DNA of 64,000 bases from an uncultured Fibrobacterota bacterium (GTDB lineage: Bacteria; Fibrobacterota; Fibrobacteria; Fibrobacterales; Fibrobacteraceae). The number at the start of each line of letters is the position of its first letter. Positions within the stretch are counted from its first letter, which is position 1. The notes below the pieces were generated by a model. It did no database searches. It saw nothing but the letters and a program-made list of their open reading frames with translations, and had not been told where the DNA came from. A program made the translations under genes and the position numbers. The DNA is taken from contig CAIRAY010000043.1 in assembly GCA_903876665.1 (NCBI GenBank), positions 1 to 64,000 of the forward strand. The letters are read 5' to 3'. Below are positions 1 through 37,033 of this stretch, one piece after another.

Positions 1-1518
1 AGCGGTGCAACTTCCGTGAATTCAGGTACTTTGAATGTAACCGGTTCCCTGGCCAGTGGGAGCGCGGTGACGGTTGCGAATGCCACAACCTTGGCGGGCA
101 ATGGCACCACAGCGGGGACTGTGATGATTCAGGATGGTGGTCTTATGGCTCCAGGTTCTATGGGGGCTGGAACTTTGAATACGGGTGCGTTCACCATGGG
201 CAGCACATCGGTCCTCAATATGGATTTGGGAACGTCAAGCGACTTGGTTGCGGTCACAGGTGCTTTGACTTTGGATGGAATCCTGAACGTAACTGCGGGG
301 GCAGGCTTCACGTATGGCGTATATCCCTTGCTGAGCTATTCCGGGGCATTGGTCAATCGCGCACTGGTCACAGGTACCATGCCAGCTGGGTACAGCTATA
401 CCGTTTCCGCCACGTCGAGTCCGGTTACTCTTCGTGTCAGCGTTTCTCCCCTAATTACATCGGATGGAGGAGCTGCAACGGCCTCCATCAATGTTGTAGA
501 GAACCAGAGTGCTGTGACAACCGTCGTTTCTATCGATGCGGATGGAGAAACTCCATTATATAGCATTACGGGTGGGTCAGATGCAGGCCAGTTCAGCATT
601 GTTGCAGGGACCGGTGTCTTGACTTTTTCCACTGCACCAAACTATGAGATCCCCACCGATTTTGGTGCCGACAATGTTTATGATGTCCAAGTTACGGTTT
701 CGGATGGCTATGGTGGGACGGATCTTCAGGATATCTCGGTCACGGTTTCCAATGTAAATGAAGCTCCCCTGAGTGTTGACAGTATTCAAGTGAGCATGCT
801 GGATTCAAAGCGGGGGAGGATCTATTCATCCAAAGTAAATAGCATTCTGGACACGTTATCCATCCCTAGCGGTGCGCAGGTCACCATGACGAGTCACTTT
901 GTTGATCCCGAAGGTGATCCCTTTGTTTTCGCAATTTTGCAAGCGCCAGCGGGGTTGTTGGATTCTTCCTATGTCCCTGGATTTTTGCGCATAAAATGGA
1001 CTCCAGTTCTGAACGCAAATGACAGCATTCGCCTCGAAGCAACGGATTCTGCAGGAGCAAAGGATACCCTTATAATCCGGTTTCGTAGCCTTTCCAATTT
1101 GGCACCACAATTTTCAAGTGGAATGGTTTTAGCTACCGACAAAGCCAATAATGTGCTTCGATCCATTCCACTAAGTCTCCCATCCACCAGCATTCCGCGA
1201 AATGCCAGCCTCAATATTCACATTGGCTTTGACGATCCTGAAGGAGATGCATTCGAGCTTACTCCCCTCAACATACCCACAACGGTAAATTGGTATTCCG
1301 AGAATTCCCAGATTCATTTGAACTGGCAAAACCCAGGCAATGCCGATACTTCATTTTCCATTATGGCTACAGATGATCTTGATGCGATTGACACGGTTTT
1401 CTTTTCGCTAAAGTATGGCAATTCGCTTCCTGTTTCGCTATATATATCCAATCCGAAACAAGTAAAATCCCCATTACCCTACCTTCATTTCTTTGATCTC
1501 CTTGGACGACGTGAATGA
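1..1518 (+). CDS. Giant secreted beta-strand-repeat surface protein, 3' part (module copy 1, gene A1)
   Basis: The frame is already open at base 1, so the N-terminus lies outside the window. In order, the visible part has: an autotransporter-associated beta-strand (PATR-like) repeat to about residue 145, with Gly/Thr-rich text such as GTTAGTVMIQDGGLMAPGS; a cadherin-like domain at about 155-255, with VVENQ and AGQFSI motifs; and two Ig-like segments with DPEGD motifs at about 290-480. The protein stops two residues after an FFDLLGR motif. It is probably exported and displayed on the cell surface as an adhesin or scaffold. It overlaps the next gene by ATGA (1515-1518). Its paralogue is the 1658-residue protein at 32057-37033, which has the same repeat-cadherin-Ig order but a longer sorting domain at its end. 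Function beyond surface display is inference. Confidence 0.8.
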   Translation, partial: SGATSVNSGTLNVTGSLASGSAVTVANATTLAGNGTTAGTVMIQDGGLMAPGSMGAGTLNTGAFTMGSTSVLNMDLGTSSDLVAVTGALTLDGILNVTAGAGFTYGVYPLLSYSGALVNRALVTGTMPAGYSYTVSATSSPVTLRVSVSPLITSDGGAATASINVVENQSAVTTVVSIDADGETPLYSITGGSDAGQFSIVAGTGVLTFSTAPNYEIPTDFGADNVYDVQVTVSDGYGGTDLQDISVTVSNVNEAPLSVDSIQVSMLDSKRGRIYSSKVNSILDTLSIPSGAQVTMTSHFVDPEGDPFVFAILQAPAGLLDSSYVPGFLRIKWTPVLNANDSIRLEATDSAGAKDTLIIRFRSLSNLAPQFSSGMVLATDKANNVLRSIPLSLPSTSIPRNASLNIHIGFDDPEGDAFELTPLNIPTTVNWYSENSQIHLNWQNPGNADTSFSIMATDDLDAIDTVFFSLKYGNSLPVSLYISNPKQVKSPLPYLHFFDLLGRRE

Positions 1519-3089
1519 GAATAATGAATCCGTTTTTTTTGATTCCCTTTTGGTTCGCCATTTGCGCATATTCTCAAGCTGGCGTGTATTTGTCATCTGA
1601 TGATATTGAGGAAATTTCAGATCCTGAAAGAATAGCCAATACAAGCTTCCTGTATCGTGTCGGAGAAAAAGCAGATTCGCTTCGGTTTTACCGGGTGTTC
1701 ATGAGCAACATGCTCTACGGCACAAAAAATACGTTTCAATGGCCGGCCGATCTCGAAGGTGCGCAGCGATACCGGTTGCCACTTTTTAACAGCCGTGAAG
1801 CCACACGCAAAAAACAAATGATTTCCGAAATGATATTCAATGATCGTTTGGTGTTGTCAAGCGATGATTCTCTTTATTATCTAAAGGGAGGTGATGTGGT
1901 CCCTCTAAAAAGGATTCCGGGTCCTGGGATTGCCTTTATTACTTCCTCCCCTGGCGCCAGCTACCTAAAGCTTGACGCAAAAGGGGGGCTTGTTGAAAAG
2001 TCCCTTCCTGCCTTTTATTACACATTGAATGACACTACCCAGATATGTTTTATTCGGGCGGACACCAAGTTGTCCATTGAATTGAACCCCTATACGCCTT
2101 TGGGGCAATTCCGTATAGAAAATATTGTCCTTTCTCCTTACCCGGAAGTTCATCTACCCGCACGCCCTGTCTTGGAGCTCCCAGCCAAAGCCGAAGTCGA
2201 TTCTGCAGGACTGCGTGGGGTTGATAGCCTAACCGCTGTTCTACAAACATGGATTGCCGAAGACTCTCTTCATATCAATCAATTTGTCGATTCGGTTCAG
2301 AAACAACTGGTTACCCAAATTTCAAAAACCAAATATGAAACCGATCAAGCTTATATCCGAAGAGCGGATTCCTACAAGCAAGAAGCCCGACTCTTGCTCC
2401 AAAAAATTGCAACGTGGAATCGTGTTGACCAACTCCTGTTTCCCCTGCAACAAAAACGGAATATTTTTCAATCCTATCGGAAGCAACAGGCCATTAATCT
2501 TGCCAATGAAGAATTTAAACGCACCCAGGATTTTCGCACTCAATTGCTGAACCATCACCTATGGAACCGACTATTTGCTTCGGCGTATTGGACTATCGGA
2601 CGCAACATGGATCAGAGCTTCGCCAACCCAAGTCCCACAATGCTTTCTGGCGGAGGGGTCCGGTTGGATTGGATTGGGCGTCTCTATCGCAAAACATCCC
2701 TCATAACCCACCTTGAGGGCTCCTTGAGCGCTTGGCGATTTCAGGAACAAGAAAACCGCTTTAGCACCCAGAAATCTGGCGTATTGGCTTTTGAAATCGG
2801 AATCCCAGTCGGTATAGCCCCTGCAGGGAATTACACGCTCGATACCACCTCAGGCCTTGTCATTCAAGTTTCAGCGGGCCCAGCGCTTGCGTTGCGGAAT
2901 ACCGAACTCGTTAGAAACTCCGGAGCAGAAAGTAAAAAGACCTACGCCATTGGAGGCGCAGGCAGTCTCAGTCTATTCTTTGCAGGAATGCCAATTATTG
3001 TCAGCCTTGACTATTCCTACTTCAACGATAAGCTTGGCGACTTTGCCTTACGAGTCGGCATACCGCTTTATCGAAGGGAGGCCAAATGA
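1515..3089 (+). CDS. Exported protein with helical middle and probable outer-membrane barrel (gene A2)
   Basis: This is a 524-residue protein; I do not recognise a named family. It has a signal peptide at about residues 1-22, a beta-rich region to about 220, a charged helical and probably coiled-coil stretch at about 230-350, and a C-terminal 160 residues of alternating hydrophobic strands ending in LRVGIPLYR, like an outer-membrane barrel. It is a clear paralogue of the protein at 30537-32060: compare YGTKNTFQWPADL with YKTKYAFRWPAEI, and IFNDRLVL with IFNDNLIL. It sits between the giant surface protein and a lipoprotein, with ATGA overlaps on both sides. This suggests the three products assemble together, perhaps with this one as the outer-membrane anchor. 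ATG at 1515 is chosen for the overlap; ATG at 1524 is also possible. Confidence 0.8.
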   Translation: MRIMNPFFLIPFWFAICAYSQAGVYLSSDDIEEISDPERIANTSFLYRVGEKADSLRFYRVFMSNMLYGTKNTFQWPADLEGAQRYRLPLFNSREATRKKQMISEMIFNDRLVLSSDDSLYYLKGGDVVPLKRIPGPGIAFITSSPGASYLKLDAKGGLVEKSLPAFYYTLNDTTQICFIRADTKLSIELNPYTPLGQFRIENIVLSPYPEVHLPARPVLELPAKAEVDSAGLRGVDSLTAVLQTWIAEDSLHINQFVDSVQKQLVTQISKTKYETDQAYIRRADSYKQEARLLLQKIATWNRVDQLLFPLQQKRNIFQSYRKQQAINLANEEFKRTQDFRTQLLNHHLWNRLFASAYWTIGRNMDQSFANPSPTMLSGGGVRLDWIGRLYRKTSLITHLEGSLSAWRFQEQENRFSTQKSGVLAFEIGIPVGIAPAGNYTLDTTSGLVIQVSAGPALALRNTELVRNSGAESKKTYAIGGAGSLSLFFAGMPIIVSLDYSYFNDKLGDFALRVGIPLYRREAK

Positions 3090-3949
3090 AATACCTTTAT
3101 CTTCTCGTTTTCTGGTTCTTTTCCTCTTGTTCTGACTTTCACCTTGGGTATACACCAGGGGGAAACCCAGCCCCTCCGATCTTCTTGACAGATACACTAA
3201 TAGACACCACAATCGTCGCATCGGATTCCGTAATCGTTCGCCTTCGGTACAATTCTTCAGACACGATTCTCGATAGCACGTTCTATTTGCGTTCCGGGAA
3301 TTATGCGGAGCTGGGATATTCGATTCAAGGGTCCGGAAACCTCGATTCAATCTTTCTGTACGGTCTTGTGGTCACTACAGAGGCCATTTCCTTTTCGACC
3401 AATATGGAGAATTCCCGCTTCCATGCTCTTGACAGCATCAGTCATGTTACCGCAGGAAATGTCGAAAGATTTCAGCTAAGTGTTCCGGGGATTCCCTCGC
3501 AGTCCTATGGGTTGCGCATATATAACAACGGCCCTAGTGATCTGAATTTGGGCGCCTTGTTATTGGTTGGGCATTCTAGCCCCGACTCCTCCGCAACATC
3601 GCAAATTGTTGCAACTCTACAAGAAGTTCGCGAGGTGGTGTTGCGTAGTGCCTATAATGTTTATGCGAATACCCAGGTTTGGACTCCGATCCCGGTGATG
3701 CCCGGCGACTCCATCATTGGGTCGCTCCGTCTTGATCCAGGTTTACAGGCGTTCATAATCAACTCCGCAGAAATGGCGGATTTGACCATGAATGGGAATC
3801 AGGCTATTGGCTCTTGGAATTCACAGAACAACGCCAGATCGATCAAGCTGAGTATAGATCAGCCCGACACCTTGTACTATTTGGTGAAAAATGATTCAAC
3901 GGCAAATCTGGGGGTTTCCGATACGATCCGCCTCGTTCACAAATTGTAA
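3086..3949 (+). CDS. Probable lipoprotein of the three-gene surface operon (gene A3)
   Basis: This 287-residue protein has a short hydrophobic leader followed by SSCSDFHLGY, a lipobox-like site with the candidate lipidated cysteine at about residue 15. The remainder is beta-rich without a domain I recognise. The paralogue at 29674-30540 has the matching VSCSDFHFAI leader and later shared text (GALLLVG, SDTIRL-type ending), so the family is real. It overlaps the preceding gene by ATGA, which fixes the start. Its stop lies only 3 nt from the stop of the convergent gene. It is likely periplasmic or at the inner face of the outer membrane, as a partner of the barrel and the giant surface protein. 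The role is inferred from position only. Confidence 0.78.
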   Translation: MKYLYLLVFWFFSSCSDFHLGYTPGGNPAPPIFLTDTLIDTTIVASDSVIVRLRYNSSDTILDSTFYLRSGNYAELGYSIQGSGNLDSIFLYGLVVTTEAISFSTNMENSRFHALDSISHVTAGNVERFQLSVPGIPSQSYGLRIYNNGPSDLNLGALLLVGHSSPDSSATSQIVATLQEVREVVLRSAYNVYANTQVWTPIPVMPGDSIIGSLRLDPGLQAFIINSAEMADLTMNGNQAIGSWNSQNNARSIKLSIDQPDTLYYLVKNDSTANLGVSDTIRLVHKL

Positions 3950-3952
3950 TTC

Positions 3953-5278
3953 CTATTGAGCCTGGATCGAAATAATCTCATCACGACGTACACCAATGAT
4001 CCCAATCATGGTGCGAATGCGGAGAACCTTTTCTTCGGGGAGGGAAAGGACCTCTCCGGTAAAGGTTTTTCCATTTTTCAAATCTACACGAACAAAGGAA
4101 TGCAGACCCGGACCAAAGGAAGGAGGTGGAGCCTTTATGGAGGACGTTGTCGTTTCGAGTGGCTTTCGGTCGCGAATTATGGAGAGCGCGGAAATTTCAA
4201 GATCGCGAATCACCGCAATCGGTACTGCAGAGTATGCGTCTTGTGGTAAAGATTTTGTTGTTGCTAAATTTTGTCGCCCCATGGAGACCAACATGGTGTC
4301 GCCCAATGATTGGTTAATTTGTTCAGCAAGCGCCTCAATCCGTTTTCCATTGGTGATTTGCGTACCCATCAAGTATACTCGCCGATTTGCGTCACGGGCT
4401 AGAGAGTCGTTGCCTGCGACTTTGATTGCCCCCAAATAGTTTTTGAGCGCCTGTCCCTTGTTGCCAATTTCTTCTTCGCAAAGTCCGCGCACCATCAAGA
4501 CTTCTGCTTGTTCCGCTGGGCCAGCCTGATCTTCGGGTTTTAATGAGTTGAGTAAAGCATTGCACTGCATCAACAAGGGCATTTTGCGCGCCCGAACCAA
4601 TTCAGGAAGTTCAGCATTCAAAAGGTTTTTTTGCTCCAGAACAATCTGATCCAAATGTTGTAATAACAAACTGGCGGTTACCCCTTGATCGTTGTGACGA
4701 TTTTGAGCAATAACTCTTTGATATAAATCCTTCGCTTTAGGTATCTCACCCAATAAAGCTAGGCAGTATCCCTTATGAAGCAATAGGACTCCTAGTAAAA
4801 CGGGGTCATGAATCATCGGAGCGGTTTTGTCATAAATATCAAGGGCTTTCTGATATTCGCGGATTCGCTCTAATCGAAACGCCATGCCTAGATAATCTAG
4901 GGATTGCATTTCAATCCATTCTACCAAAAGGGGCTTGCCAATCGTTTGTCGTAGCGTATTTACCACATTTAGACTTACACGATCAAGAATGTCGACAACC
5001 TTTAGGTCAGAAAAGTCGTTTTCTGTACGGCTATCCAGCAAGTGGGAAATTTCAAATTCATTCCAATCCGAGCTACTACGGTCAATCTCTTCAAGATATA
5101 GCTTGCGTTGGTCCACAAAGCGCGCAACTAAGTACATGCGTGTGAGATTCCCCTCAATGAACTCTTGCTTTTGTAATTGCCAAGCAATTTCACTCAAGTT
5201 CATTCGAAGGCTCGACCAAGCAATTACCACTGTCAGCCCAATAATCAAGGCGGCCAGCGGCGTCAATAGCCGGTTCAT
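3953..5278 (-). CDS. Membrane-anchored TPR-like protein partnered with a diguanylate cyclase (gene B2)
   Basis: This is a 441-residue protein with one N-terminal membrane segment (about residues 6-24), then helical repeats of TPR type (for example EYQKALDIYDK and KGYCLALLGEIPKAKDLY). It ends with a C-terminal domain of about 50 residues (VRVDLKNGKTFTGEV to the end) that resembles a small SH3/Sm-like barrel. The last 25 residues (RIRTMIGIIGVRRDEI) are the part best conserved with the paralogue at 28212-29540. Most of the chain should be periplasmic. The gene starts inside the stop of the diguanylate cyclase gene (ATGA, 5275-5278), so the two are translationally coupled. It may carry an extracellular or envelope state to the cyclase, or report from it. 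No named family recognised. Confidence 0.8.
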   Translation of the reverse strand: MNRLLTPLAALIIGLTVVIAWSSLRMNLSEIAWQLQKQEFIEGNLTRMYLVARFVDQRKLYLEEIDRSSSDWNEFEISHLLDSRTENDFSDLKVVDILDRVSLNVVNTLRQTIGKPLLVEWIEMQSLDYLGMAFRLERIREYQKALDIYDKTAPMIHDPVLLGVLLLHKGYCLALLGEIPKAKDLYQRVIAQNRHNDQGVTASLLLQHLDQIVLEQKNLLNAELPELVRARKMPLLMQCNALLNSLKPEDQAGPAEQAEVLMVRGLCEEEIGNKGQALKNYLGAIKVAGNDSLARDANRRVYLMGTQITNGKRIEALAEQINQSLGDTMLVSMGRQNLATTKSLPQDAYSAVPIAVIRDLEISALSIIRDRKPLETTTSSIKAPPPSFGPGLHSFVRVDLKNGKTFTGEVLSLPEEKVLRIRTMIGIIGVRRDEIISIQAQ

Positions 5279-6630
5279 TTTTGCTCAACTCCAGGCTTAT
5301 AGGCCACGGCTTGATTGCGGCCAGCCTTTTTTGCTAGGTATAGGGCTTTATCGGCGCATTCAATAAAGGCAACTTGTAGATCAGTAGATTCAACAGGGGC
5401 GCCTCGCAGTGCGTCATGAATCTCCGCAACACCAAGGCTTACGGTTATTGGAAGTAGCCCCCCAGTCGGTAACTCAAAACGCATAGCCATTATTGCTTTG
5501 CGGATTTTTTCTGCAACACAAAGCCCTTGAGCCAAATTGGTTTCTGGCAATAAAAGGACGATTTCTTCTCCACCATAACGAGCGAGCACATCGGATGGGC
5601 GAACTAATTGGAGCAGGGTAGCTCCCATTTCGCGGAGAACTTTGTCACCACAAAGATGACCATGATTGTCGTTCACTTTTTTAAAGTGATCAACATCAAG
5701 CAGAATTAATCCGAGAGGACTGCCATATCTAGAGGACTGGGAAATATGCTTTGCCAAAAAGTCGAAGAAATGTCGGCGGTTGAACAAGCCTGTTAGCTCG
5801 TCCGTTCTCGCCATGTTTTCAATGCGGCTTTGGGCATTCTGTAGCTGGTCCATTTGTGATTGCAAACGCAAAAAATTTTCCTGCAACGCACCGGACATAT
5901 GATTAAATCCTTCTGCCAAAGAGCCCAGCTCATCTTGGGAAAAAACGGTGACTTTTGCTGAATAGTCTCCCTTGGAAATCCGCTCGGTCGCTGTTCTCAT
6001 GGCAAGGATAGGAGAGACCAGCAAGCGGAACAAGAACAAACCAAAAAAGGCATGCAACAACGTCAAGCCAATCACCGTCAAAAAAATCTGTTTATACAAA
6101 TCCCGGTACTGAGTTCCAATTTCATCCAAAGATATTTTGGAATAAATGGTTTTGTCTTTGAGGCCAATTTGATCCAGGGGAATGTATACCTCAATAAATC
6201 TGCGATCCTGGCTCAGCAACAAGTGATATTCCACCCCTGAATTGCGCTCCAAAGCCCTTGCTTTTGATGTTTGCTCCTTATATCCCTTGGGTAGTATCAT
6301 TGTCGCCGAGGACGCCATAATGCGTGCGCTATCTTGGTAGATCACGAAATTTGGCAATAACCTGGTTAACATTTCCCCAAGTGAAACCAAGGCAACAGTC
6401 TGGTCCTTGGCATTCAAGGAGCTGGCTTCGGAGGGCATGGGCATTTTGTGCAAACTGTTTACCGTTGAGGAAATCAATTCCTTAACCTGGTAACGTGAGT
6501 TATTGGAAATTAACTCAAGCTGGTTGAGGGAGATCACCCATGAGAAAATTCCAATACTGATAATGGAAAGCAGTAAATAGGAAAGCCCAACTTTGAATCG
6601 AATACTGCGAAATGAATGAATTTTGCCCAT
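5275..6630 (-). CDS. Membrane diguanylate cyclase with periplasmic sensor, HAMP and GGDEF domains (gene B1)
   Basis: This 451-residue enzyme makes c-di-GMP from two GTP. A membrane segment at about residues 14-34 is followed by a periplasmic sensor of about 150 residues, a second membrane segment at about 185-205, a HAMP domain and a GGDEF domain. The active-site motif is GGEEI (353-357) in ARYGGEEI. The product-inhibition site RPSD (344-347) lies five residues before it, so the enzyme should be active and feedback-inhibited. DVDHFKKVND and the DELTGLFNRR start of the domain are intact. The start codon has no upstream ribosome-binding site and sits 7 nt after a TAAAAT box (leaderless). Paralogue at 26878-28215. 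Confidence 0.93.
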   Translation of the reverse strand: MGKIHSFRSIRFKVGLSYLLLSIISIGIFSWVISLNQLELISNNSRYQVKELISSTVNSLHKMPMPSEASSLNAKDQTVALVSLGEMLTRLLPNFVIYQDSARIMASSATMILPKGYKEQTSKARALERNSGVEYHLLLSQDRRFIEVYIPLDQIGLKDKTIYSKISLDEIGTQYRDLYKQIFLTVIGLTLLHAFFGLFLFRLLVSPILAMRTATERISKGDYSAKVTVFSQDELGSLAEGFNHMSGALQENFLRLQSQMDQLQNAQSRIENMARTDELTGLFNRRHFFDFLAKHISQSSRYGSPLGLILLDVDHFKKVNDNHGHLCGDKVLREMGATLLQLVRPSDVLARYGGEEIVLLLPETNLAQGLCVAEKIRKAIMAMRFELPTGGLLPITVSLGVAEIHDALRGAPVESTDLQVAFIECADKALYLAKKAGRNQAVAYKPGVEQK

Positions 6631-6637
6631 TGTGATT

Positions 6638-6666
6638 ATTTTATCCTAAAAAATCGACAAACGCAA
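6638..6666 (-). promoter_or_regulatory. Leaderless promoter of the diguanylate cyclase operon
   Basis: On the minus strand TTGCGT (6661-6666) is followed by a 17-nt spacer and TAAAAT (6638-6643). ATG lies 7 nt after the -10 box, so transcription should begin at or next to the start codon. The paralogous gene at 26878 has TATAAT at the same 7-nt distance. Confidence 0.55.
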
Positions 6667-6744
6667 GAGGATTTGCCTTCGCCTAGGTCAGGTGAGTTCT
6701 TGTCCAGCCAAAGCCTATTTGCGTTTCCCGCAAAACTGTGATGA

Positions 6745-6805
6745 TTCCAAAAAAACAGGAATTAAAATGAAAAAGGATTGACAAAATCAAAACCAGATAT
6801 ACTTT
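6745..6805 (+). promoter_or_regulatory. Palindrome plus promoter upstream of the GH12-like gene
   Basis: TTCC-N9-GGAA (6745-6761) has an A-rich core. It lies 16 nt before a perfect TTGACA (6778-6783); a 16-nt spacer then leads to TACTTT (6800-6805). The same order and spacing is found upstream of the genes at 18119 and 24622. It is probably the site of a shared activator or repressor. Confidence 0.55.
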
Positions 6806-6823
6806 GGTAATGGTTAGGTGTGT

Positions 6824-6840
6824 TTCCAAAAAAAAAGGAA
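6824..6840 (+). promoter_or_regulatory. Second TTCC-N9-GGAA palindrome before the GH12-like gene
   Basis: TTCC, nine A residues and GGAA form a 17-bp palindrome, extendable to GTTTCC/GGAAAC (6822-6842). It lies 43 nt before the ATG at 6883 and downstream of the predicted transcription start, so it could act as a repressor site or in the leader RNA. It has the same half-sites and spacing as the copies at 6745, 18170 and 24675. Confidence 0.5.
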
Positions 6841-6882
6841 ACAAAGTGCAAACAGACAAAACATTAAATATGGGGTATCGTT

Positions 6883-7920
6883 ATGCATAATCGCATATTC
6901 ATTCTTGTAGGCATTGCTGCGTTGCTTTTTGGGTGCCAAGAAAATGCAACGAGCATCAATGGTGACTTGTCTTCTAGCATCAATAATTATTTGTCGTCGG
7001 ACGTGAATATCGACTTGTCGTCGAGCTCATTGGGTTTTTCTTCCGTTGAGCTGGCAAGCTCCTCCTTGGGTTCCTATTCATCCTCCAATATGGTTGTCGT
7101 TCCGGGATTGAGTAGTCAAGCTGCCCCAAGTAGCTCCAGTGCCGCCCCCATAGCCTGCAATGAGGCCTCGGCGATCTGGACGACCAATGACATCTATGGA
7201 AAGTACGAGCTAGGCGAGTCTTATGTCGCGCGAAACAATGTGTGGGGCGGTGACCGGGCAGGGTATGTCGCTGGCGAATCCATGTGGGTTGTGTCGGAGC
7301 GCTGCTGGGGTGCCAACGCCTCTCACCAAGAAGCGACGGGGCTGGTGAAGTCCTTCCCCAATATGCTCCGTGGCTGGGCCACCTGGGATGGCTACATCCG
7401 TCAAAATACCGGTTTACCTCTCAAGCTCAGCGAGATGACCAAGGCGAAGATTTATTGGAAAACGTCTGCGCCTAGTGCTCCAGGTGGGCGCTACCAAGGT
7501 CTCTGGGACATTTACCTCCACACGATCACCAATCCTAGCGCCACGCAGCTCTCGCACACCAATATTCAGATCTTTCAGCAGATTTACGATCCAAGTGGCT
7601 ACGCCTCGGGCGAGGCCGCCAAGGGAGTTACCAAGACCTACGGTGGGATCACCTTCAAGATGAACATCATCAACGGAGCGACCATGTCCTCGACCAACAA
7701 GGTCATTACGCTGTTCATGGGACCATTTGCCAAGCCTAACATGGGAGTGCCTGAGGCATTGATTGATTTAAAGGCCGTGCTTGACGGCCTAAAGGCTGAT
7801 GGCATCCTTGACCCCAATTTGTACCTGAGTAGTATCCAGCCCGGCTGGGAGATTATTGGGGCCGGAAAGTTTGTTACTCTTGATTTCTGGACTGCTCTTC
7901 AAGATGAGCCAGAGCTATAA
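6883..7920 (+). CDS. GH12-like secreted lipoprotein with altered nucleophile position
   Basis: This 345-residue lipoprotein has a lipobox ending at Cys18 (ALLFGC), a Ser-rich linker to about residue 92, and a domain at 95-342 that lines up with family GH12 glucanases. Shared features are NNVWG near the start, FPNMLRGW, LWDIYL, and LSSIQPGWE near the end. GH12 enzymes carry the nucleophile Glu in a motif of the type TEIMIWFN. Here the aligned stretch is TNIQIFQQ, with Asn227 in that place. The acid/base Glu appears kept as Glu323 (GWEII). The protein may bind beta-glucan or xyloglucan without normal hydrolysis, or the active site may be rearranged. It stands alone, convergent with the beta-helix gene, behind a promoter with two TTCC-N9-GGAA palindromes. 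The family call is by eye. Confidence 0.72.
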   Translation: MHNRIFILVGIAALLFGCQENATSINGDLSSSINNYLSSDVNIDLSSSSLGFSSVELASSSLGSYSSSNMVVVPGLSSQAAPSSSSAAPIACNEASAIWTTNDIYGKYELGESYVARNNVWGGDRAGYVAGESMWVVSERCWGANASHQEATGLVKSFPNMLRGWATWDGYIRQNTGLPLKLSEMTKAKIYWKTSAPSAPGGRYQGLWDIYLHTITNPSATQLSHTNIQIFQQIYDPSGYASGEAAKGVTKTYGGITFKMNIINGATMSSTNKVITLFMGPFAKPNMGVPEALIDLKAVLDGLKADGILDPNLYLSSIQPGWEIIGAGKFVTLDFWTALQDEPEL

Positions 7921-7931
7921 GTCTCAATATT

Positions 7932-9368: not shown

Positions 9369-9409
9369 GATTCTACCTCGGGAAGATGCGCTACCTGTAG
9401 ATGTTCCCA

Positions 9410-12844: not shown

Positions 12845-12851
12845 GGTGTCT

Positions 12852-13075: not shown

Positions 13076-13084
13076 TGGCCAGGA

Positions 13085-15658: not shown

Positions 15659-15671
15659 TGTTGTCTCCGGT

Positions 15672-24622: not shown

Positions 24623-24629
24623 ACCCAGT

Positions 24630-26818: not shown

Positions 26819-26864
26819 ACCCACCCAAAAGCAATTTTTTATGGATTTGGTGATCCACTTTGGG

Positions 26865-26870
26865 TATAAT
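26865..26870 (+). promoter_or_regulatory. Consensus -10 box giving a leaderless start
   Basis: A perfect TATAAT is followed after 7 nt by ATG 26878. The alternative ATG at 26860 overlaps this box and could not be used from it. The -35 region is weak (TGGATT, 17 nt upstream). Confidence 0.5.
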
Positions 26871-26877
26871 ACTGTGG

Positions 26878-28215: not shown

Positions 28216-29540
28216 GCTTCCTCAGGGGGTGGCGTATCCCCATGTTGGTCGCTCTGCTCGTGAGCATTCTTGTTCTGCTGGCCTGGTCCAGTTTGAATAT
28301 TCACTTTCGCGAATTGGGCATTCTTCTGCAGAGAAGTGCCTACTTGGAAGATGGCTTGGGGCAAACCCATTTAGCGGCAAAATTCATCAATCAGATGAAG
28401 ATTTACCAAAAGCAAATTTCCCAGGAACAGGCGGATGAGCAGGAGTTCGCTCTCAATCAAATCCTATCGAGCCGTTCCCGCAGTGTGCAAAGCTATGTCG
28501 TTGCCATAAATGGCCTGGATAAGTTCAATGTGCTACTCATCAATGGAATGCGCAAATTAATGGGACAACCCGCGTTGCCTCAAGGAGATGCGGCGACTTT
28601 GATCAGCGACCTGGAGTTTGCTTTCCATTTGGAGCGAATCAAAGAGTATGGCATGGCGATTGCATTGTATGAAAATACTGTTTCTCAGCATGCATTTCTG
28701 GAACCAAGGATTCGCAGTATCATTAATCTGCACGAAGGCTTTTGTCTTGCCAACCTGGGAAACATGGAGAGGGCGGTTCCGTTGTTCCGTAAAGTCTTAG
28801 CCACGGAATCCAGTAACGACCTGGGAATTACGGCTGCCATTCTTTTGGACTATCTGGAGGCGATTCAACGGGAAGGTCAGAATATTCAAGAAAACGGTCT
28901 TGCCTCGGCGAAAAAATTCAGCGAGCTTCTGCAATGCACCCAGGCAAAATCCATTCTAGATACCCTGACTCTCAAAAATGCGGAGGAAAAGGCCGAGGTG
29001 GCTTTGATTCGGGGCCGTTGCCTGGAAGAAAGGGGCAAAAAGGGAGATGCCGCACAGTATTACTTGCAAGCGCTAAAAAGCAAAACGAACCACAAGGTTG
29101 TTGCGGATGCAAACCGAAGAATATTTATGGTGGGCACCCAGAGCGCTCATTCTGGATCGCTCCTCAAAGAAATTGCATCTAAAGTGAATACGGTAGTAAA
29201 GGATTCTAGCCTCATGCGAATGGAAACCCGTCTTGCCGGGGAAGAGGGCGATTCGCTGGGGACCCGATCCGGAGAGCCCTCGCTAAATCCTGAAGCACTC
29301 AACCAGATTGAATCCCTTGCGAAGGATCTATATGAAACCACCTTCAAGAACCAGCTGGCAATGCAAGGGGAAAATTTACTTCCCCAAGCTGGAACTCGGG
29401 TGCGACTCAATATCGCGGGTGGAAAATCGATCAGCGGAAAGATTCTTTCTCAACCAGGCGAAAAAATCGTGCGTATCCAAACCATGATTGGCGTGATCGG
29501 AATTACCCGCCAAGACATCCGCTCGGTAGAAATTCAATAG
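28212..29540 (+). CDS. Membrane-anchored TPR-like protein (module copy 2, gene B2')
   Basis: This 442-residue paralogue of the 3953-5278 product has an N-terminal membrane segment (about 8-27), TPR-like helices (EYGMAIALYEN, EGFCLANLGNMERAVPLFRK, RGRCLEERGKKGDAAQYY), a low-complexity stretch, and the conserved C-terminal small barrel (VRLNIAGGKSISGKILSQP to RIQTMIGVIGITRQDI). The shared TMIG(I/V)IG text is the most conserved part of the family. It overlaps the diguanylate cyclase gene by ATGA. Its stop codon is the left edge of a MITE-like insertion. I infer a periplasmic partner of the cyclase or of the neighbouring surface complex; no named family recognised. Confidence 0.8.
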   Translation: MSFLRGWRIPMLVALLVSILVLLAWSSLNIHFRELGILLQRSAYLEDGLGQTHLAAKFINQMKIYQKQISQEQADEQEFALNQILSSRSRSVQSYVVAINGLDKFNVLLINGMRKLMGQPALPQGDAATLISDLEFAFHLERIKEYGMAIALYENTVSQHAFLEPRIRSIINLHEGFCLANLGNMERAVPLFRKVLATESSNDLGITAAILLDYLEAIQREGQNIQENGLASAKKFSELLQCTQAKSILDTLTLKNAEEKAEVALIRGRCLEERGKKGDAAQYYLQALKSKTNHKVVADANRRIFMVGTQSAHSGSLLKEIASKVNTVVKDSSLMRMETRLAGEEGDSLGTRSGEPSLNPEALNQIESLAKDLYETTFKNQLAMQGENLLPQAGTRVRLNIAGGKSISGKILSQPGEKIVRIQTMIGVIGITRQDIRSVEIQ

Positions 29541-29546
29541 GACCAT

Positions 29547-29667
29547 TCACTAATGTCCAAAACAATTGGCAAACGCAAAACAGCCCCCAATCAAGTCAAT
29601 CATGCCTACAGGCCAATAACACCAATGGTCTAACGAGTTTAGACTAGATTGTTTTGGACAGTAGTGA
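29547..29667. mobile_element. 121-bp MITE-like element with 20-bp terminal inverted repeats
   Basis: Left end TCACTAATGTCCAAAACAAT (29547-29566) and right end (29648-29667) are inverted repeats at 19 of 20 positions. GGACCAT (29540-29546) and GGACCTT (29668-29674) flank it directly as a 7-bp target duplication with one change. It has no coding capacity. The convergent genes on both sides end 133 nt apart here but only 3 nt apart in module copy 1. Removing the element and one duplication leaves 5 nt. A long-loop bidirectional terminator is the alternative reading. Confidence 0.68.
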
Positions 29668-29673
29668 GGACCT

Positions 29674-30540
29674 TTATTCCTGCAGGTGCCGGAAAATCGA
29701 AATGGAGTCGGCGACCGTTTGGTCCGTGGTCGTAAAATTCGAGATGAGAACGTTCAGGCGGATTGGAGTGTCGCTGAACCATCTTAAGGTTGAAGCCGAA
29801 TCCTCTCCTTGCCAGAGGAATTTGGATGGAGGATCCCCATTGACCATGAATTCGTCGAGCTGAGTTTGGTTGAGCAAAAAGGAGGATATCCCAGACCCTC
29901 CGCTCAGCATCGCATAAACGGAGTCACTAGGTTCCAATGTGAGTTCCTTGACATAACTTGCGCCGGCAGGTAGGGTGAGAGCTGAATCAAAATGAACGGG
30001 CAGCACTTCAAGATAATCTTTGACCCGATTTACCAAATTCAAGGGGGCTGAACTTTTTGAGGGATAGCCGACCAGCAGGAGTGCACCCATTTTTACCGGT
30101 TTTCCATCAAGGCTTTTCCAGAGAACGGTGTAGTCGATGCCGGAATGAATTGGCATGCGAATCTGGTGATGAATAAAGTCGCTAGCCTCAATTTGTATAT
30201 CAACCACAGGATCCGTGACGCCTCCATGTTTGATTCCGATTTGTAGAGTATCCGTAGCGACAATAGTTCCATACAAAACAACTGAATCCATTGCGTCCGC
30301 GAGGGTTGACAAATGAAGGGGAATCTCCACATTTCGGCTCGCTCGTATGGATGCGTCCGCTTGGAACAATTTGTCGTTGGTCGCAAACAGATTCTCCACC
30401 ACGATGGAATCGGCGGGAATGCGGATGGTGTCCCGATCGTTTTCCTGGGAGGCCAGCGAGCCATTGGGGACTATGGCAAAGTGGAAGTCTGAACAGGAAA
30501 CGCAGGCAAGGGCGAAGAGCCAGGTGGCGAGGAGCTTCAT
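29674..30540 (-). CDS. Probable lipoprotein (module copy 2, gene A3')
   Basis: This 288-residue protein has the leader LACVSCSDFHFAIVPNGS; Cys16 is the likely lipidation site. It is a paralogue of the 3086-3949 product, with the same SCSDFH signature and a similar beta-rich body (GALLLVGYPS; QTLSDS-type end). ATG 30540 overlaps the preceding gene by ATGA, so the longer frame from 30567 is rejected. It is the last gene of the three-gene surface operon and converges on the diguanylate cyclase operon, with the MITE-like element in between. The right target duplication reaches the last base of its stop codon. Function unknown; the envelope location is well supported. Confidence 0.78.
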   Translation of the reverse strand: MKLLATWLFALACVSCSDFHFAIVPNGSLASQENDRDTIRIPADSIVVENLFATNDKLFQADASIRASRNVEIPLHLSTLADAMDSVVLYGTIVATDTLQIGIKHGGVTDPVVDIQIEASDFIHHQIRMPIHSGIDYTVLWKSLDGKPVKMGALLLVGYPSKSSAPLNLVNRVKDYLEVLPVHFDSALTLPAGASYVKELTLEPSDSVYAMLSGGSGISSFLLNQTQLDEFMVNGDPPSKFLWQGEDSASTLRWFSDTPIRLNVLISNFTTTDQTVADSISIFRHLQE

Positions 30541-32060
30541 GATTTTGCTCCTATAGGGGAAATCCATTTAAGGGGAAATGAAATGCCAAAAGTAAGGTCA
30601 CCATAACGATCTAGACAAAGGGTGTAACTAGTTACCAGGACAAGGGGCAAGGCTGTGAAGGCCGTACGGAGCTGGACCACTCCACCCACAGAATAGGTCT
30701 GCCTGTGGCGATTTTCGCTAAAGTCTTGAATCCAGGAATTCCTACCCTGAAGGGTTGGCCCCAAGGAAAGAAGGATTGCCCCGCCCCCCGCGAATTGACC
30801 ATGGCTATCTACTTTTGGAGCGACCAGTAAAGGAATATCAAACAGGAGGGAAGCTCCAAGATTGGCTTGGCGACTGATTTTGGGCTGGTCTTGATTAAAT
30901 TGCCATTGAGTGTGCAAATAGCTGAATTGGGGTTCGATCAGCAATTTGCTTCCGAGCATTTTGAGCCAGGACAATGATGCTTGGGCCCCCCACAATTTTA
31001 ATGGTCCTGGATCACTCGCCGATTTGGGCATGTTACGACCAATAATCCCCGCCGTGCCAAAATATATCCGGCCATCAAAGTTTTGTCGCAGAAGCGTGCG
31101 CTGGGGGTCCTTGATACGCCAACGATCCCGGGCGTCCTTGCTGGATAATATTTCTTGCTGGTAGGATTCAAGGAGCTTGATTTTTTCACGAATGCTCATC
31201 AAGGCTTTGTCCAAGTCGTTCAATGACCGAGCATTCTTTTTGGTAGTTTTGCGAATGTCTTGAATAATCTTGGCGAATTGCCTTCCGGATTGCTCCGGAA
31301 TCATCTGGGCAATGTTTTCCAAGTAGTCTATGGCCTGGATGGAGTCCTCCTCAAACCATTTCTTGGATTGGGCGAGCATCCCCTCGATGGCAAGCAGACG
31401 TAGGGAATCATTTTCAATCCCGCGAAGAGAATCGATGTTCAAAGTATGGATGGGCAAGCGAAAACGGGCCAGTGGTTCCAGGCGGATTTCCAAAGCCCGG
31501 TAAACGCCTGGCTTTAAGCTAAGGTCGATAATTTTGGGAACAAAATTTTCTGCACTCACTAGGTAAAGGTTATCCTCATTGTTGGATGATTCGATAAAGC
31601 GGGGCATTTGTTGTGCTCGACTATCCGTTATAGAGGTGGTGAGCTGTCGAATTTCGGCTTGCTGCGGTGAATTTACCAGGACAATTCCCGGGAGCGGAAT
31701 ATTTTGAAGTGGCCGAGTTGATCCCTTGTAAATGGCGGTGAGCGCGGAGGTGTCGGTCAGGATGAGGTTGTCGTTAAAAATGATTTCGAGGTTTGGATTG
31801 GAGAATGCCACAGTCGGTCTGGCTTCTGGGGGAATTTCGGCAGGCCAACGGAATGCGTATTTTGTCTTGTACAACAGACCATTCAATTCCACCTTGACAA
31901 ATTGACTTTGGCCGTTGTTCTGACTTCGCCAAAGAAAGATGCTGGACATCGCTTTCACGGGGTCACGCACAATGCTGAGATTGTCGATGGATTGGAAATA
32001 CCCATCCTGCGCCCAGCTCAGGGTAAGAATAATCGAAATGAATAATGCAATTTGTTTCAC
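30537..32060 (-). CDS. Exported protein with helical middle and probable outer-membrane barrel (gene A2')
   Basis: This 507-residue paralogue of the 1515-3089 product has a signal peptide (to about 17), an N-terminal beta region, a central helical part at about 215-330 rich in Lys/Glu/Gln, and a C-terminal region with alternating strands (LWGAQASLSWLKMLGSKLLI; ending YGDLTFGISFPLKW). It has ATGA overlaps at both ends (30537-30540 and 32057-32060). Length, domain order and overlaps all match copy 1. It probably anchors or exports the giant surface protein of the same operon; that is inferred from the invariant gene order, not from a recognised family. Confidence 0.8.
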   Translation of the reverse strand: MKQIALFISIILTLSWAQDGYFQSIDNLSIVRDPVKAMSSIFLWRSQNNGQSQFVKVELNGLLYKTKYAFRWPAEIPPEARPTVAFSNPNLEIIFNDNLILTDTSALTAIYKGSTRPLQNIPLPGIVLVNSPQQAEIRQLTTSITDSRAQQMPRFIESSNNEDNLYLVSAENFVPKIIDLSLKPGVYRALEIRLEPLARFRLPIHTLNIDSLRGIENDSLRLLAIEGMLAQSKKWFEEDSIQAIDYLENIAQMIPEQSGRQFAKIIQDIRKTTKKNARSLNDLDKALMSIREKIKLLESYQQEILSSKDARDRWRIKDPQRTLLRQNFDGRIYFGTAGIIGRNMPKSASDPGPLKLWGAQASLSWLKMLGSKLLIEPQFSYLHTQWQFNQDQPKISRQANLGASLLFDIPLLVAPKVDSHGQFAGGGAILLSLGPTLQGRNSWIQDFSENRHRQTYSVGGVVQLRTAFTALPLVLVTSYTLCLDRYGDLTFGISFPLKWISPIGAKS

Positions 32061-35000
32061 TGCTCAAACCTATTCAAGGTGGCGATCCAAAGACCGTTGC
32101 TATAGGGTAGATTCACCCTGTGTTTGCCGAGCTCAAACCGTTGTTCCAAGAGGAGCGACTTCTGACCATTCAATCGAACATCCCAAATTTGAACGAAGCC
32201 TTCTTGGGGAATGGAGAATTCTCCGATTGATGGACCAATTCTGTCCAATAACTGGGTGGACCGCTTAAGGGTGTTTGAATTGTAGGACCATTTCAATTCA
32301 ACGGTATCGACGGCACCGAAATGATCGCGCAAAATGATGGAGACAAGAGTATCCGACAAGGCCGGTTGATGGATTAAAACCCGCAAGGATTGCCCATCAA
32401 AAAACCAAGGGTACGGTGAGGAAACTTGGGCGGTGTAGGCATCTCCATCCGGTTCCTTAAAGGTTGCGGTAATTCGTAATTCATCCGGTTGGTCTATTCG
32501 GGTGGACTTTGGCAACAGGTCAAAGAAGCGAACACTGGGAAGGCGGATTGCTTGCAGTTTTGCCGAGGCAATCTGCGGTGGGTGATTCACTGTGGCATTA
32601 ATCATGATTTCAATGATCGTGCTATCCTGGATTTGGTTTAGGACTCCAAATTTAAAGGATTGCAAAGAATCGCTTTGTGCCACCCATTCCCACACCACAC
32701 CAGAATCCAGAACCGTAAATGTTGCAAGTTCAGGGCCGGACAAGCGCACGATGTTTAGTTTTTGTTTTAGGGAATCCTGCACAGGGATAAACATGCGTAT
32801 GAATGACCCACCTCGGACGGAGATCAATGAATCTAGTGGAATGATGCTGTTCCATAGCTCTCCCCCCAGGGTGTCGCGCATAAAAATGCGATTCTCCAAT
32901 CCGATCAGAATAGGTGATTCATCCAAATCGGTTACCGTAACTTGAATCCATTGGCTGTCAGAATAGGTTCGATCCGTAGCCCGAACAAGAAGCTCATAAA
33001 TATTGTCTGCGTTTCCATCCGTGGGATTTTCAAAATCAGGAGGGCTCAAAAATACGAGGCGACCCGAAAGACTATCCAAGCTGAATTGAGATGCATCGAA
33101 TCCATTGGCCATGTGGAAAAATACCGAATCTCCTCCGGCGTGGGATGCTTTCATCGTGGTAATGTTGACCTGGTTTTCTATAACAGAAACTGTCGCGGTG
33201 TCCCCACCTGAATTGTTGCTGATGAGGGGAACCGCAAGGGTGGACAGGAAAAGAGAGTCCCCGGAAATTATTAGAGTTCCGTTAAACCCAGGTGGCATGG
33301 AGTCGATTTGAAGGGTGTCATTGGTAAGGAGGCCAGACCAAGTTGCCAAAAGGTATGTCTTTTCGGCGAGGCCAGGACCAGAAGTGATTTTTAATTTTCC
33401 ATTCAAACTCATGCCTTGATCCACAATTAGAAAATCCTGGAGACTGCCGAGCTCCATCCGCAAAATGGATGTTGGAGATAAAATTAGGGATCCGATGGTT
33501 ATGGTGTCCGCCGAGTTACTCCCAGGGGATAGGGTTCCTCCGTTTTCAATGGTGACCGTTCCTGCAATGGCCCCGCTTCCGGTCAGGGAGGCGCCTGCCT
33601 GAACGGTAGCCTCGCTTGCTGCACCAAGTGATCCGTTGACATTGAGTTCGCCGGTCGCAATAATGGTTGGGCCTGAATAAGTGTTGGCACCCGAAAGAGT
33701 CTGCCGGTAAGTCCCTTGTTTAATCAGTTGAATGTTCCCGGAAATATTTCCCGCATAAGTCGTGTCGCTGCTTCCCTCGTTTCCGATCAGGGTCAGTGTA
33801 CTACGATTGGTCTGGGAATTAGAAATGACAGCAGTGCCCGAATTGACCGGGCTATAAATGGAAGAGAAAACCTGGTTAAACCCATTCAAGTCGAGAGTAC
33901 TACTGAGTATTGCATGGTTTTGACTCCAAGCAAGGCCAAATGGAAGTCCATTGATTGCCCCAAGGCGCGCAGTGCCTTCGGTTAGATTAAACCGATTGGC
34001 GCTTCCCCCTCCACCGTAAACGACTGTTCCGGCTCTTTGATGGGGAATGGCGATACTGTCAGAGTGAATGGGACCAAGAATATTGAGTTGACCAGTGCCT
34101 TCGGAGGCAAAGTGGCCACCATCGAGGCAATTTGCATTGATGGTAATTGGCCCGGCCCATGAAGCCACATTGCCTGTTCCCGTTGTTAGGGCTCCAAAAC
34201 CCATACCAGGTGAACAGGCCCCGACGGTTAGCGTATTCCCCATTGCAATGCCATTTCCTAGGTAAATTCGGCCTGAATCGGACAGGGTTGCTTCGCCTGA
34301 GCCAAGCGCCTTGTTGTGCCCTAGGATCATGTTGCCACCTACATGGGTATAGCCTCCCGTGAAGGTGTTTTCTCCGGTGAAGGTTTGGGTCCCTGTTCCA
34401 TGCTTTTCGATGGCAATGGGACCAACATGATTTAAAATTTGTCCGCTGAAAATGCCTGAACCATTGTTGATTCCAATTGTCATTGTTTGAGCGGTTGCCG
34501 TTGGGCTCTGTGTTTGTTCGATGATTCCACTGCCTGTCAATTCATCCACAAAAACAGGATCGCCATTCCAAAGATCAAAAATCGCACCGCTGGCAATATT
34601 CAATCCCGCTTTATTTAGGGTCCATTTGCCACCGTTCCAGCTACCATTGCGAAGGACTCCTTGTTGAACGTCAATCAAACCGTCCGTCATATTCAAGTAG
34701 ACATTGAAATTAATAGCTCCTTGCTCGCCGAGGCAAAGAGCATTTGCGCCCGTCTTCAGGAGAGTTCCTTTTCCGGTAATAATGCTCCCCTTTAAAGCCG
34801 TGGAGCCCAGTCGAATAAGGCTTGTTTTGGCTTGTAGCTCCAGGACTGCGGCAGAGTCGATTTGAAAGCTTGTGGTGGAAGCTCCTGTGGCCAAGTTGTT
34901 TACGTCAACCAGGGTAAGGGTATCTGAACTGACTTTGATTGCACCATTCAACGTAATTCCATTTCCCCCCGAAAAAGTCAGTTTTCCGATTCCAGATTTG

Positions 35001-37033
35001 GTCAGGTTCAGGTTGTTTTCGTTGATTCCGGAACCACCCAAAGCCCCTGAGAATTCCATAGACGTGTTGTTTGTAATCATCAACGTGCTCGGACTGGCAT
35101 TCGCCCCCACAATAGAGAATGTGCCTGAACCAGGAACATCCGAAATTCCGGCGATGGTTTGGGTCACAGGTCCGTTCACATCCCCAAGGATCAATTTACC
35201 CATTAAGCCCGTGTGGGTGCTGTTGCCAAAGCCTAATTGGGTGGAAATGGGCAATCGGTTGCTTCCCCCTGCCAATTGTAAAACAACCTTGTTGCTATCC
35301 GTGTTGGATAGATCATGAAATGTTGTGGTTCCGGAATAGGTATTGGCGCCGGTCAATACCAATGTGCCAGCTTGCACTCGGGAGTTTTCTCCTCGAAGGT
35401 TAAGGTCCCCAGTTCCAGAAATAGTTCCCGAAAAAGTTGAGGAGAGGCCGTTGGCCATGTCCAGGTTTAGGCCTTGATGATTGTTGATTACTTGGCCAGA
35501 GCCACTGAGCGTGCCCAGGGCGTCGCCTTTGTCGTTCATATTAAAAACCGCGCCTGGTCCATTCAGAGTCAGTTTGAGTGTATTGGCCATGCGATTCCAT
35601 GCGGACAGTTGGAGTGATGCTCCATCGGCAACGGAAATGTTGGTATTGAATGCATCACCGTTGTCGGGGCCACCAATAGTCAGGGTACCTTCCTTCACTG
35701 TGATGAGGGAGCCCGAGAAAACTGGATTCACATAAAGTTCTCCATTCCCTTCTTTGGTGTAATCGCCTAGGATTGTCGATGTGATGGAGTCGGATTGACC
35801 ACTGGTAATTGAAAGGGTTGCTAGGGCACCAAGTTGCAAAGACCCCCCAGAAATGCGATATCCGGATTGGTTAAATCGGATATGGTCCACCGCCTGGGTT
35901 CCGTTGACCAGTACGGTGTGGGGAAATCCATCACCCACAAAACGCGCGCGGTAGCCCGCACCAAGCCAGGGAGCCAAAATGGTGCCATTTTGTGTCCAGT
36001 AGCTATTTGTGCCCCAGGTTCCATTGCCTTCCTGCAATCCCGCAGTAACAGAAGTATCCCAGACCCATTCGGTGGTCGTAGGTCCCTGGGCATATTCATA
36101 GGCTCCCAGGTCCACAGGGGTCTGGTTAGGTCTTGGGTTGCCACTGATGTCCTGGGCTGGGGCGCCGGTGCTGAGACCCGCATCCCGGGCAATGGAAAAG
36201 GCGTCAATTTGAAAATCCGATGCCTTGGATAGGGTTCCGCTGGAATCCGAATAGGCGGGATTATTGGATTGTATGGTCCCTGCTCCCCAATCCGCTAACG
36301 TTTCGGATAGGGGAATCAAGCTGTAGGACCAGGCTTTTTTTATGGTTGCGGACGCATTGAGTAGGCGATTTTGGCTAAAAATGCAATTTTGCATTTGGAT
36401 GATTTTATTTGCGGCAAGCTGGACATTGGTGAGGGGGTAGATTGCGATGGTGTCGTTGCCGTGGAAGGTCGAGTTGGTTACCGTTCCGTATGGTCCCAGG
36501 ACATTTAATGGATTGGCGCTGACAAAGAGAGGGCGTTTGTTGTTGAGGAAAATGCTGTTGGTGATGGATAAATAGTTTGCATGGTCGCCACTGAGAATGA
36601 ATGGGGAGGCTGTGTAGTTTCGTAAAATGACTTTTTCTAAAAACATTTGGCGATAATTATTGGTTAAGCTGAAGGTGGCGCAGTTTTCCAGAACAACGCG
36701 CTCGAACCTAGCCGTTCCATTTACATTCTGGTCCCAGCCCGTCCAATTGCGTATGCGAAGAATGGGAAAGGAATCTGGGTTGGCTGACAACCCACGAAAA
36801 ACAATGGATCCAATAGTAATATTTGCGGGAAATACTTGATCGTAAGTGTCTACATCGGAGCCTCCGATGAGCACAGTGTCTCCATTTGTAGAGGCGGACA
36901 TGACCAATGCAAGCGTGGTATAAGCTCCACCTACGCCATCAGCATCCAATATACGGGTCGTACCCCCAACAAGGCAGGGAAGAAAAAGAAAAATGAGCAC
37001 GCATTTTGCGAGCAGTGGAAAAAGGGGGGTCAC
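32057..37033 (-). CDS. Giant secreted beta-helix and beta-strand-repeat surface protein (gene A1')
   Basis: This 1658-residue protein has a signal peptide (1-24, GTG start), then a beta-helix domain at about 25-320 of the choice-of-anchor type (ends VDLGAYEYAQ). Many autotransporter-associated beta-strand (PATR) repeats cover about 330-1230 (for example GTGTQTFTGENTFTGGY and YRQTLSGANTYSGPT). A cadherin-like domain (about 1280-1380) and Ig-like segments with EPDGD follow. It ends with a type IX-like sorting domain (VQIWDVRLNGQK to LWIATLNR). PATR repeats are known from surface adhesins. It shares its C-terminal half with the truncated protein at 1-1518. The promoter TTGAAA-N17-GATAAT ends 9 nt before GTG. 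Confidence 0.88.
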   Translation of the reverse strand: MTPLFPLLAKCVLIFLFLPCLVGGTTRILDADGVGGAYTTLALVMSASTNGDTVLIGGSDVDTYDQVFPANITIGSIVFRGLSANPDSFPILRIRNWTGWDQNVNGTARFERVVLENCATFSLTNNYRQMFLEKVILRNYTASPFILSGDHANYLSITNSIFLNNKRPLFVSANPLNVLGPYGTVTNSTFHGNDTIAIYPLTNVQLAANKIIQMQNCIFSQNRLLNASATIKKAWSYSLIPLSETLADWGAGTIQSNNPAYSDSSGTLSKASDFQIDAFSIARDAGLSTGAPAQDISGNPRPNQTPVDLGAYEYAQGPTTTEWVWDTSVTAGLQEGNGTWGTNSYWTQNGTILAPWLGAGYRARFVGDGFPHTVLVNGTQAVDHIRFNQSGYRISGGSLQLGALATLSITSGQSDSITSTILGDYTKEGNGELYVNPVFSGSLITVKEGTLTIGGPDNGDAFNTNISVADGASLQLSAWNRMANTLKLTLNGPGAVFNMNDKGDALGTLSGSGQVINNHQGLNLDMANGLSSTFSGTISGTGDLNLRGENSRVQAGTLVLTGANTYSGTTTFHDLSNTDSNKVVLQLAGGSNRLPISTQLGFGNSTHTGLMGKLILGDVNGPVTQTIAGISDVPGSGTFSIVGANASPSTLMITNNTSMEFSGALGGSGINENNLNLTKSGIGKLTFSGGNGITLNGAIKVSSDTLTLVDVNNLATGASTTSFQIDSAAVLELQAKTSLIRLGSTALKGSIITGKGTLLKTGANALCLGEQGAINFNVYLNMTDGLIDVQQGVLRNGSWNGGKWTLNKAGLNIASGAIFDLWNGDPVFVDELTGSGIIEQTQSPTATAQTMTIGINNGSGIFSGQILNHVGPIAIEKHGTGTQTFTGENTFTGGYTHVGGNMILGHNKALGSGEATLSDSGRIYLGNGIAMGNTLTVGACSPGMGFGALTTGTGNVASWAGPITINANCLDGGHFASEGTGQLNILGPIHSDSIAIPHQRAGTVVYGGGGSANRFNLTEGTARLGAINGLPFGLAWSQNHAILSSTLDLNGFNQVFSSIYSPVNSGTAVISNSQTNRSTLTLIGNEGSSDTTYAGNISGNIQLIKQGTYRQTLSGANTYSGPTIIATGELNVNGSLGAASEATVQAGASLTGSGAIAGTVTIENGGTLSPGSNSADTITIGSLILSPTSILRMELGSLQDFLIVDQGMSLNGKLKITSGPGLAEKTYLLATWSGLLTNDTLQIDSMPPGFNGTLIISGDSLFLSTLAVPLISNNSGGDTATVSVIENQVNITTMKASHAGGDSVFFHMANGFDASQFSLDSLSGRLVFLSPPDFENPTDGNADNIYELLVRATDRTYSDSQWIQVTVTDLDESPILIGLENRIFMRDTLGGELWNSIIPLDSLISVRGGSFIRMFIPVQDSLKQKLNIVRLSGPELATFTVLDSGVVWEWVAQSDSLQSFKFGVLNQIQDSTIIEIMINATVNHPPQIASAKLQAIRLPSVRFFDLLPKSTRIDQPDELRITATFKEPDGDAYTAQVSSPYPWFFDGQSLRVLIHQPALSDTLVSIILRDHFGAVDTVELKWSYNSNTLKRSTQLLDRIGPSIGEFSIPQEGFVQIWDVRLNGQKSLLLEQRFELGKHRVNLPYSNGLWIATLNRFEQ

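Follow-up and report, generated by a model that had tools for sequence, protein, structure and literature searches.

Comparison with described systems

To our knowledge, few systems have been described that report the state of the outer membrane or surface to c-di-GMP enzymes, and most of these are in Pseudomonadota. In the YfiBNR (TpbB) system of Pseudomonas aeruginosa, an inner-membrane HAMP-GGDEF cyclase is combined with one partner in the periplasm and another component in the outer membrane (PMC2837407, PMC4655355, PMC4887326). In the LapD-LapG-LapA system, an inner-membrane-spanning c-di-GMP protein with a degenerate GGDEF domain and an EAL domain is linked to a giant adhesin (PMC3032545, PMC3032553). 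In Fibrobacter succinogenes, c-di-GMP is reportedly linked to adhesion and cellulose degradation, and c-di-GMP, the T9SS, OmpA and TPR proteins have been discussed for growth on cellulose, including OmpA/TPR/fibro-slime envelope complexes (PMC6851124).

We analysed a 64,000-nucleotide stretch of DNA (the window; assembly GCA_903876665.1, contig CAIRAY010000043.1, here C43) from an uncultured bacterium of the Fibrobacteraceae. An earlier note on this DNA described a five-gene module, present twice, of a giant surface protein (A1), a barrel protein (A2), a lipoprotein (A3), a TPR-like protein (B2) and a diguanylate cyclase (B1). We give an even chance to the reading that the core B1-B2-A3-A2 acts as an envelope-spanning relay, from outer-membrane A2/A3 through B2 to B1, and that A1 is an optional partner or client.

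Our best reading is that the module would be analogous in logic to YfiBNR, built from unrelated parts. As in YfiBNR, the gene for a probable extracytoplasmic partner, B2 (placed in the periplasm by its topology), lies beside that of a HAMP-GGDEF cyclase. The DgcN/YfiN model scored B1 over its HAMP-GGDEF part only, far under the cut-off. The module differs in that B2 is an anchored TPR protein and there is no YfiR (PF13689 had no match in the genome of this bacterium, while the E. coli control was positive). Where YfiB is an outer-membrane lipoprotein sensor, A2 is predicted to be an OmpA-type barrel; A3 is a separate lipoprotein, and a giant surface protein lies alongside the module. LapD is also an analogue in logic, in the reverse direction to the proposed relay, but B1 has a catalytic-type GGEE motif and no EAL domain (Pfam). 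The F. succinogenes complexes likewise bring envelope OmpA and TPR proteins together with the T9SS and c-di-GMP in a Fibrobacter, but the proteins are different ones; A2 and full A3 occur in no other genome of the family except that of a bacterium of another genus (G146). We found no account of the module in titles and abstracts of the open-licence literature on Fibrobacter/Fibrobacterota diguanylate cyclases or c-di-GMP, nor in those on cyclases with periplasmic TPR proteins and lipoproteins. A four-gene envelope group repeated in a fixed tail-to-tail layout suggests a previously undescribed wiring from the surface to an internal signal.

Two inverted copies of the module in the window

All ten open reading frames, five per copy, were found where the earlier note placed them, with copies A (1-6630) and B (26878-37033) in mutually inverted orientation. 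The five gene pairs are homologues at 24-38% identity (BLASTP between copies): A1 and A1' share 31% over 478 aa (E 8e-57), A2 and A2' 25% (E 1e-47), A3 and A3' 24% (E 4e-22), B2 and B2' 33% (E 1e-75) and B1 and B1' 38% (E 7e-105).

In copy A, A1 (1-1518, plus strand) lacks its 5' end, since the first base of the window is also base 1 of contig C43; the 505 aa that remain are the C-terminal part of a giant surface protein with beta repeats and a Big_9/cadherin-like domain. A2 (1515-3089, plus) has a signal peptide, a periplasmic part of ~330 aa ending in a long helical region and a predicted C-terminal eight-strand OmpA-like outer-membrane barrel. A3 (3086-3949, plus) is a predicted outer-membrane lipoprotein (lipobox ...SSC-SDF) of a family known only from the module. 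On the opposite strand, B2 (3953-5278, minus) encodes an inner-membrane-anchored, probably periplasmic TPR protein with a short C-terminal domain, and B1 (5275-6630, minus) a predicted membrane diguanylate cyclase in which two TM segments flank a periplasmic sensor region, followed by a HAMP domain and a GGDEF domain (GGEEI, RxxD I-site).

Copy B opens with B1' (26878-28215, plus), which resembles B1 (GGEEL, RETD I-site), and B2' (28212-29540, plus; GTG start). It continues on the minus strand with A3' (29674-30540; lipobox ...VSC-SDF), A2' (30537-32060; GTG start) and A1' (32057-37033). The last is a surface protein of 1658 aa with a signal peptide, a choice-of-anchor Q domain, PATR/autotransporter-type beta repeats and a cadherin-like domain. 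The six within-operon junctions had all been described as ATGA overlaps. This holds for four of them (A1/A2, A2/A3, B1/B2 and, with the A3' start set at 30540, A2'/A3'), whereas B1'/B2' and A1'/A2' overlap by GTGA.

Because they are convergent, the two operons of a module do not form a single transcript. Their 3' ends are 3 bp apart in copy A and 133 bp apart in copy B. The gap in copy B, between B2' and A3', holds the inverted repeat GTCCAAAACAAT (29555-29659), with perfect 12-bp arms (29555-29566 and 29648-29659) ~81 bp apart and a strong predicted hairpin (z -5.5), a possible bidirectional terminator.

Conservation of a four-gene core

The module is not merely a two-copy arrangement. A profile search with B2 and A2 found four copies in the bacterium's own genome (G000), two on C43 and one each on contigs C189 and C111 (copies C and D), and another genus of the same family, represented by G146, has one. 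The C189 copy (locus L009) consists of B1 (5884-7134, plus), B2 (7128-8501, plus), A3 (8488-9195, minus) and A2 (9192-10721, minus), with an AroA-like gene after A2 and no A1. On C111 (L010), B1 (about 4289-5617, plus), B2 (5614-6897, plus), A3 (6884-7765, minus) and A2 (7762-9318, minus) are accompanied by a giant protein of 1553 aa (9470-14131, plus), divergent from A2. The G146 module has the order of copy A: the end of an MBG_2-domain protein, A2 and A3, converging on B2 and B1. The convergent 3' ends overlap by 14 bp in copies C and D and abut in G146.

The core order, B1 and B2 converging on A3 and A2, is thus found in all five modules (four in G000, one in G146), at pairwise identities of about 18-47%. 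Its retention by such diverged modules strengthens the proposal that the convergent operon pair works as one unit, on evidence from two genomes, with four of the five modules from a single draft genome and those four not fully independent because of their shared ancestry. The co-occurrence of five genes in convergent order, as first described, stands for the four-gene core; A1 is optional. Among 168 genomes of the phylum, A2 was confined to G000 and G146, always with B1-B2, and A3 likewise, apart from two short, weak partial matches in G068 and G088 that we judged marginal. No A2 was found in plasmids. The earlier note had held that finding A2, A3 and B2 mostly apart from each other would speak against it. 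A2 and A3 were not found in this way; B2 partly was, as an older, longer-tailed form without A2/A3 at 27 further loci of the phylum.

In a tree of B1 and B2, the five modules formed one clade (support 100/100). The four-gene tree had weak joins of A with C (83/88) and of B with D (87/89), and sisterhood of A and B was marginally rejected (AU p 0.041). Mutual identity of the own-genome copies was about as low as their identity to G146. Local inverted duplication was considered as the origin of the window copies and set aside, as these are not nearest relatives in the four-gene tree. Given the tree and the low identity of the own-genome copies, nothing points to a recent event of this kind, and the tree counts weakly against a local inverted duplication.

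Between copies A and B lies a polysaccharide-enzyme cluster (9410-12844, 13085-18119, 20688-22559 and 24872-26818). It contains a GH26 gene that carries beta-helix and ricin lectin repeats, a pair of neighbouring PL8 lyase genes, one with a T9SS tail, a GH44 gene, and a GH26 gene with two CBM35 stretches. A role in polysaccharide utilisation, drawn from these intervening genes, was rejected, as the contexts of the other three modules give it no support. The link looks incidental because the C189, C111 and G146 copies have other neighbours.

B1 and B2 within and outside the module

The GGDEF domain of the window copies of B1 was recognised with Pfam E values of 6e-41 and 7e-45. All five module B1 proteins have an intact GGEE[ILM] motif and an RxxD I-site (RPSD, RETD, RKSD, RASD and RSTD). 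On this catalytic-type motif and I-site, B1 is predicted to be a diguanylate cyclase. Two TM segments precede the HAMP and GGDEF domains; the structure model was weak. B2 has an N-terminal TM segment followed by TPRs. About 34 GGDEF genes are present in the own genome and four of them are B1, so most of the c-di-GMP network lies outside the module.

B2 relatives were found in 30 of the 168 phylum genomes, including one false match (G019, locus L062; E 6e-6), where there is no B1. B2 adjoins B1 in all five modules, and outside G000 and G146 B1 lies directly upstream of B2 at each of the 25 loci, of 27, that are uncut by a contig end. Because of this adjacency, B1 and B2 are probably partners; the pair is older than the module. 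Where enough sequence is available, the older pair sits behind histidine kinase and NtrC-type genes. Most loci have TPR genes upstream of these, frequently also FapA and FlgN-like genes; in one locus class an SLT/LysM gene follows B1-B2. The operon, conserved in other genomes of the phylum (L047-L061 and L063-L065), reads FapA, TPR, FlgN-like, histidine kinase, NtrC, (second regulator), B1, B2, (SLT/LysM); we found no description of it in the literature.

The older pair and the module share adjacent genes and homologous B1 TM/sensor and B2 TPR parts. Searched in either direction, the part of B1 before HAMP in one form matched that in the other (E 3e-9 to 5e-18 at Z 10000), whereas the GGDEF parts matched only weakly. 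Older B1 has a non-canonical GHEGGDDF motif in contrast to RYGGEE in the module, and older B2 has a longer C-terminus, recognised as TonB_C in the single locus scanned. The older pair is also single-copy and has no A2/A3. The TM/sensor and TPR parts have therefore persisted while both ends changed. Such a paired change, in the output domain of B1 and in the C-terminus of B2, would be expected if the sensor part interacts with the TPR part and the two ends were re-wired jointly.

Since the older pair has neither A2 nor A3, B1-B2 can work without them. The two operons could then be independent neighbours, with A2-A3 anchoring or assembling surface proteins and B1-B2 acting as a general envelope-stress cyclase, carried along in ancient block duplications. 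The occurrence of B1-B2 elsewhere without A2/A3, the convergent layout, in which the operons are not co-transcribed, and the common ancestry of the own-genome copies fit this explanation. We nevertheless consider it unlikely: the pairing was kept in 5/5 modules despite the 18-47% identity while the context beyond the core varies between copies, and A2 never, and A3 only as the two marginal matches, occurs without B1-B2 in the 168 genomes.

The predicted outer-membrane pair and the giant proteins

AlphaFold2 models built from the two window sequences were weak, the A2 barrel aside. Eight strands were modelled at 352-520, with pLDDT of about 45-80 in the barrel and below 50 elsewhere, so confidence is moderate for the barrel alone and the remainder is unreliable. 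The barrel matched OmpA (1bxw) with E 2e-7 in Foldseek. A2 thus models as an OmpA-like eight-strand outer-membrane barrel with a large periplasmic part. The OmpA C-terminal peptidoglycan-binding domain is absent from A2 (Pfam); the chain ends with the barrel. A lipobox is present in A3 of all five modules, four detected and that of G146 read by eye (WAC-SDF). Searches with A2 and A3 profiles against solved structures gave nothing useful, and no A3 relative of known structure was detectable.

A1 lies on the same strand as A2 in copies A and B, and a giant protein occupies the A1 position in G146; in C111 it is divergent, and in C189 it is absent. A1 is optional, not a fixed part of the module. 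Outside the module, too, A1-like giant proteins are common in the own genome, and A1-like repeats occur at many of its other sites, so A1 does not define the module. Given both observations, a tie between c-di-GMP and display of the giant surface protein stays conjectural. Contig C130 of G000, for instance, has an open frame of 8247 aa (about 7800-27100) with many A1-type repeat matches. On contig C114 (L094), an unrelated GGDEF gene (3460-4758) directly precedes a giant surface protein (5263-9213) that resembles the N-terminal part of A1'.

The A1' repeats are of the autotransporter type (PF12951, 3e-10; TIGR02601, 1e-8). A Pfam scan found no C-terminal autotransporter translocator barrel in A1', and neither A1 nor A1' matched the T9SS C-terminal sorting domain TIGR04183. 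A search of A1' against solved structures gave nothing useful. The own genome encodes the T9SS translocon SprA and proteins with T9SS tails; among the giant proteins, a profile built from these tails matched only that of G146, and weakly (E 1e-4 for 1000 sequences). A1 (1480-1518) and the GH26 mannanase (26785-26818) have similar endings, FDLLGR followed by a few further residues, which resemble a truncated beginning of a T9SS sorting domain.

In the Lap system, c-di-GMP controls retention of the giant adhesin (PMC3032545). By this inside-out logic, that of LapD/LapG/LapA, c-di-GMP made by B1 could act via B2 and A2/A3 to promote display or retention of the giant protein. A giant adhesin-like protein does adjoin the core in four of the five modules, and in the two window copies its gene shares the direction of A2 and overlaps it, but B1 has a normal catalytic GGDEF motif and no EAL receptor domain, a LapG-family protease (PF06035) had no match in the own genome (Caulobacter control positive), and the C189 copy has no A1. 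Overall, we find this direction of control improbable. It is very doubtful that A2/A3 are an export or anchoring device for A1, with B1-B2 monitoring only A1 secretion stress: A1 runs into A2 with a start-stop overlap in both window copies and G146 has its giant protein in the A1 position, but small eight-strand OmpA-like barrels are too narrow to export proteins, A1 is missing in C189 and divergent in C111, and another exporter exists because the genome has SprA and T9SS tails.

A candidate envelope relay

In the outside-in relay that we prefer, the A2 barrel, with its long periplasmic arm, and the lipoprotein A3 would form an outer-membrane complex. This complex would read surface state, for example the neighbouring giant protein's load, export or ligand binding. 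The state would be passed to the periplasmic TPR protein B2 and from there to the periplasmic domain of B1, whose HAMP domain would switch the diguanylate cyclase and alter c-di-GMP. We infer the contact of A2/A3 with B2, the outside-in direction, the signal and the outputs from sequence. The four copies probably act in parallel, as sensors of different surface proteins. A fuller reading, which we rate as somewhat less likely than not, is a dedicated outer-to-inner-membrane c-di-GMP relay of new composition (OmpA-type barrel, lipoprotein, anchored TPR protein and cyclase), which would have arisen by re-wiring of the older phylum-wide cyclase/TPR pair and been multiplied in one genome as parallel sensors matched to different giant proteins.

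A cyclase/TPR pair is found across the phylum; in one lineage it is coupled with a new outer-membrane pair and present in four copies. The four copies offer a natural paralogue set for testing partner specificity. The module is a candidate envelope input for c-di-GMP of the kind tied to cellulose adhesion in Fibrobacter (PMC6851124).
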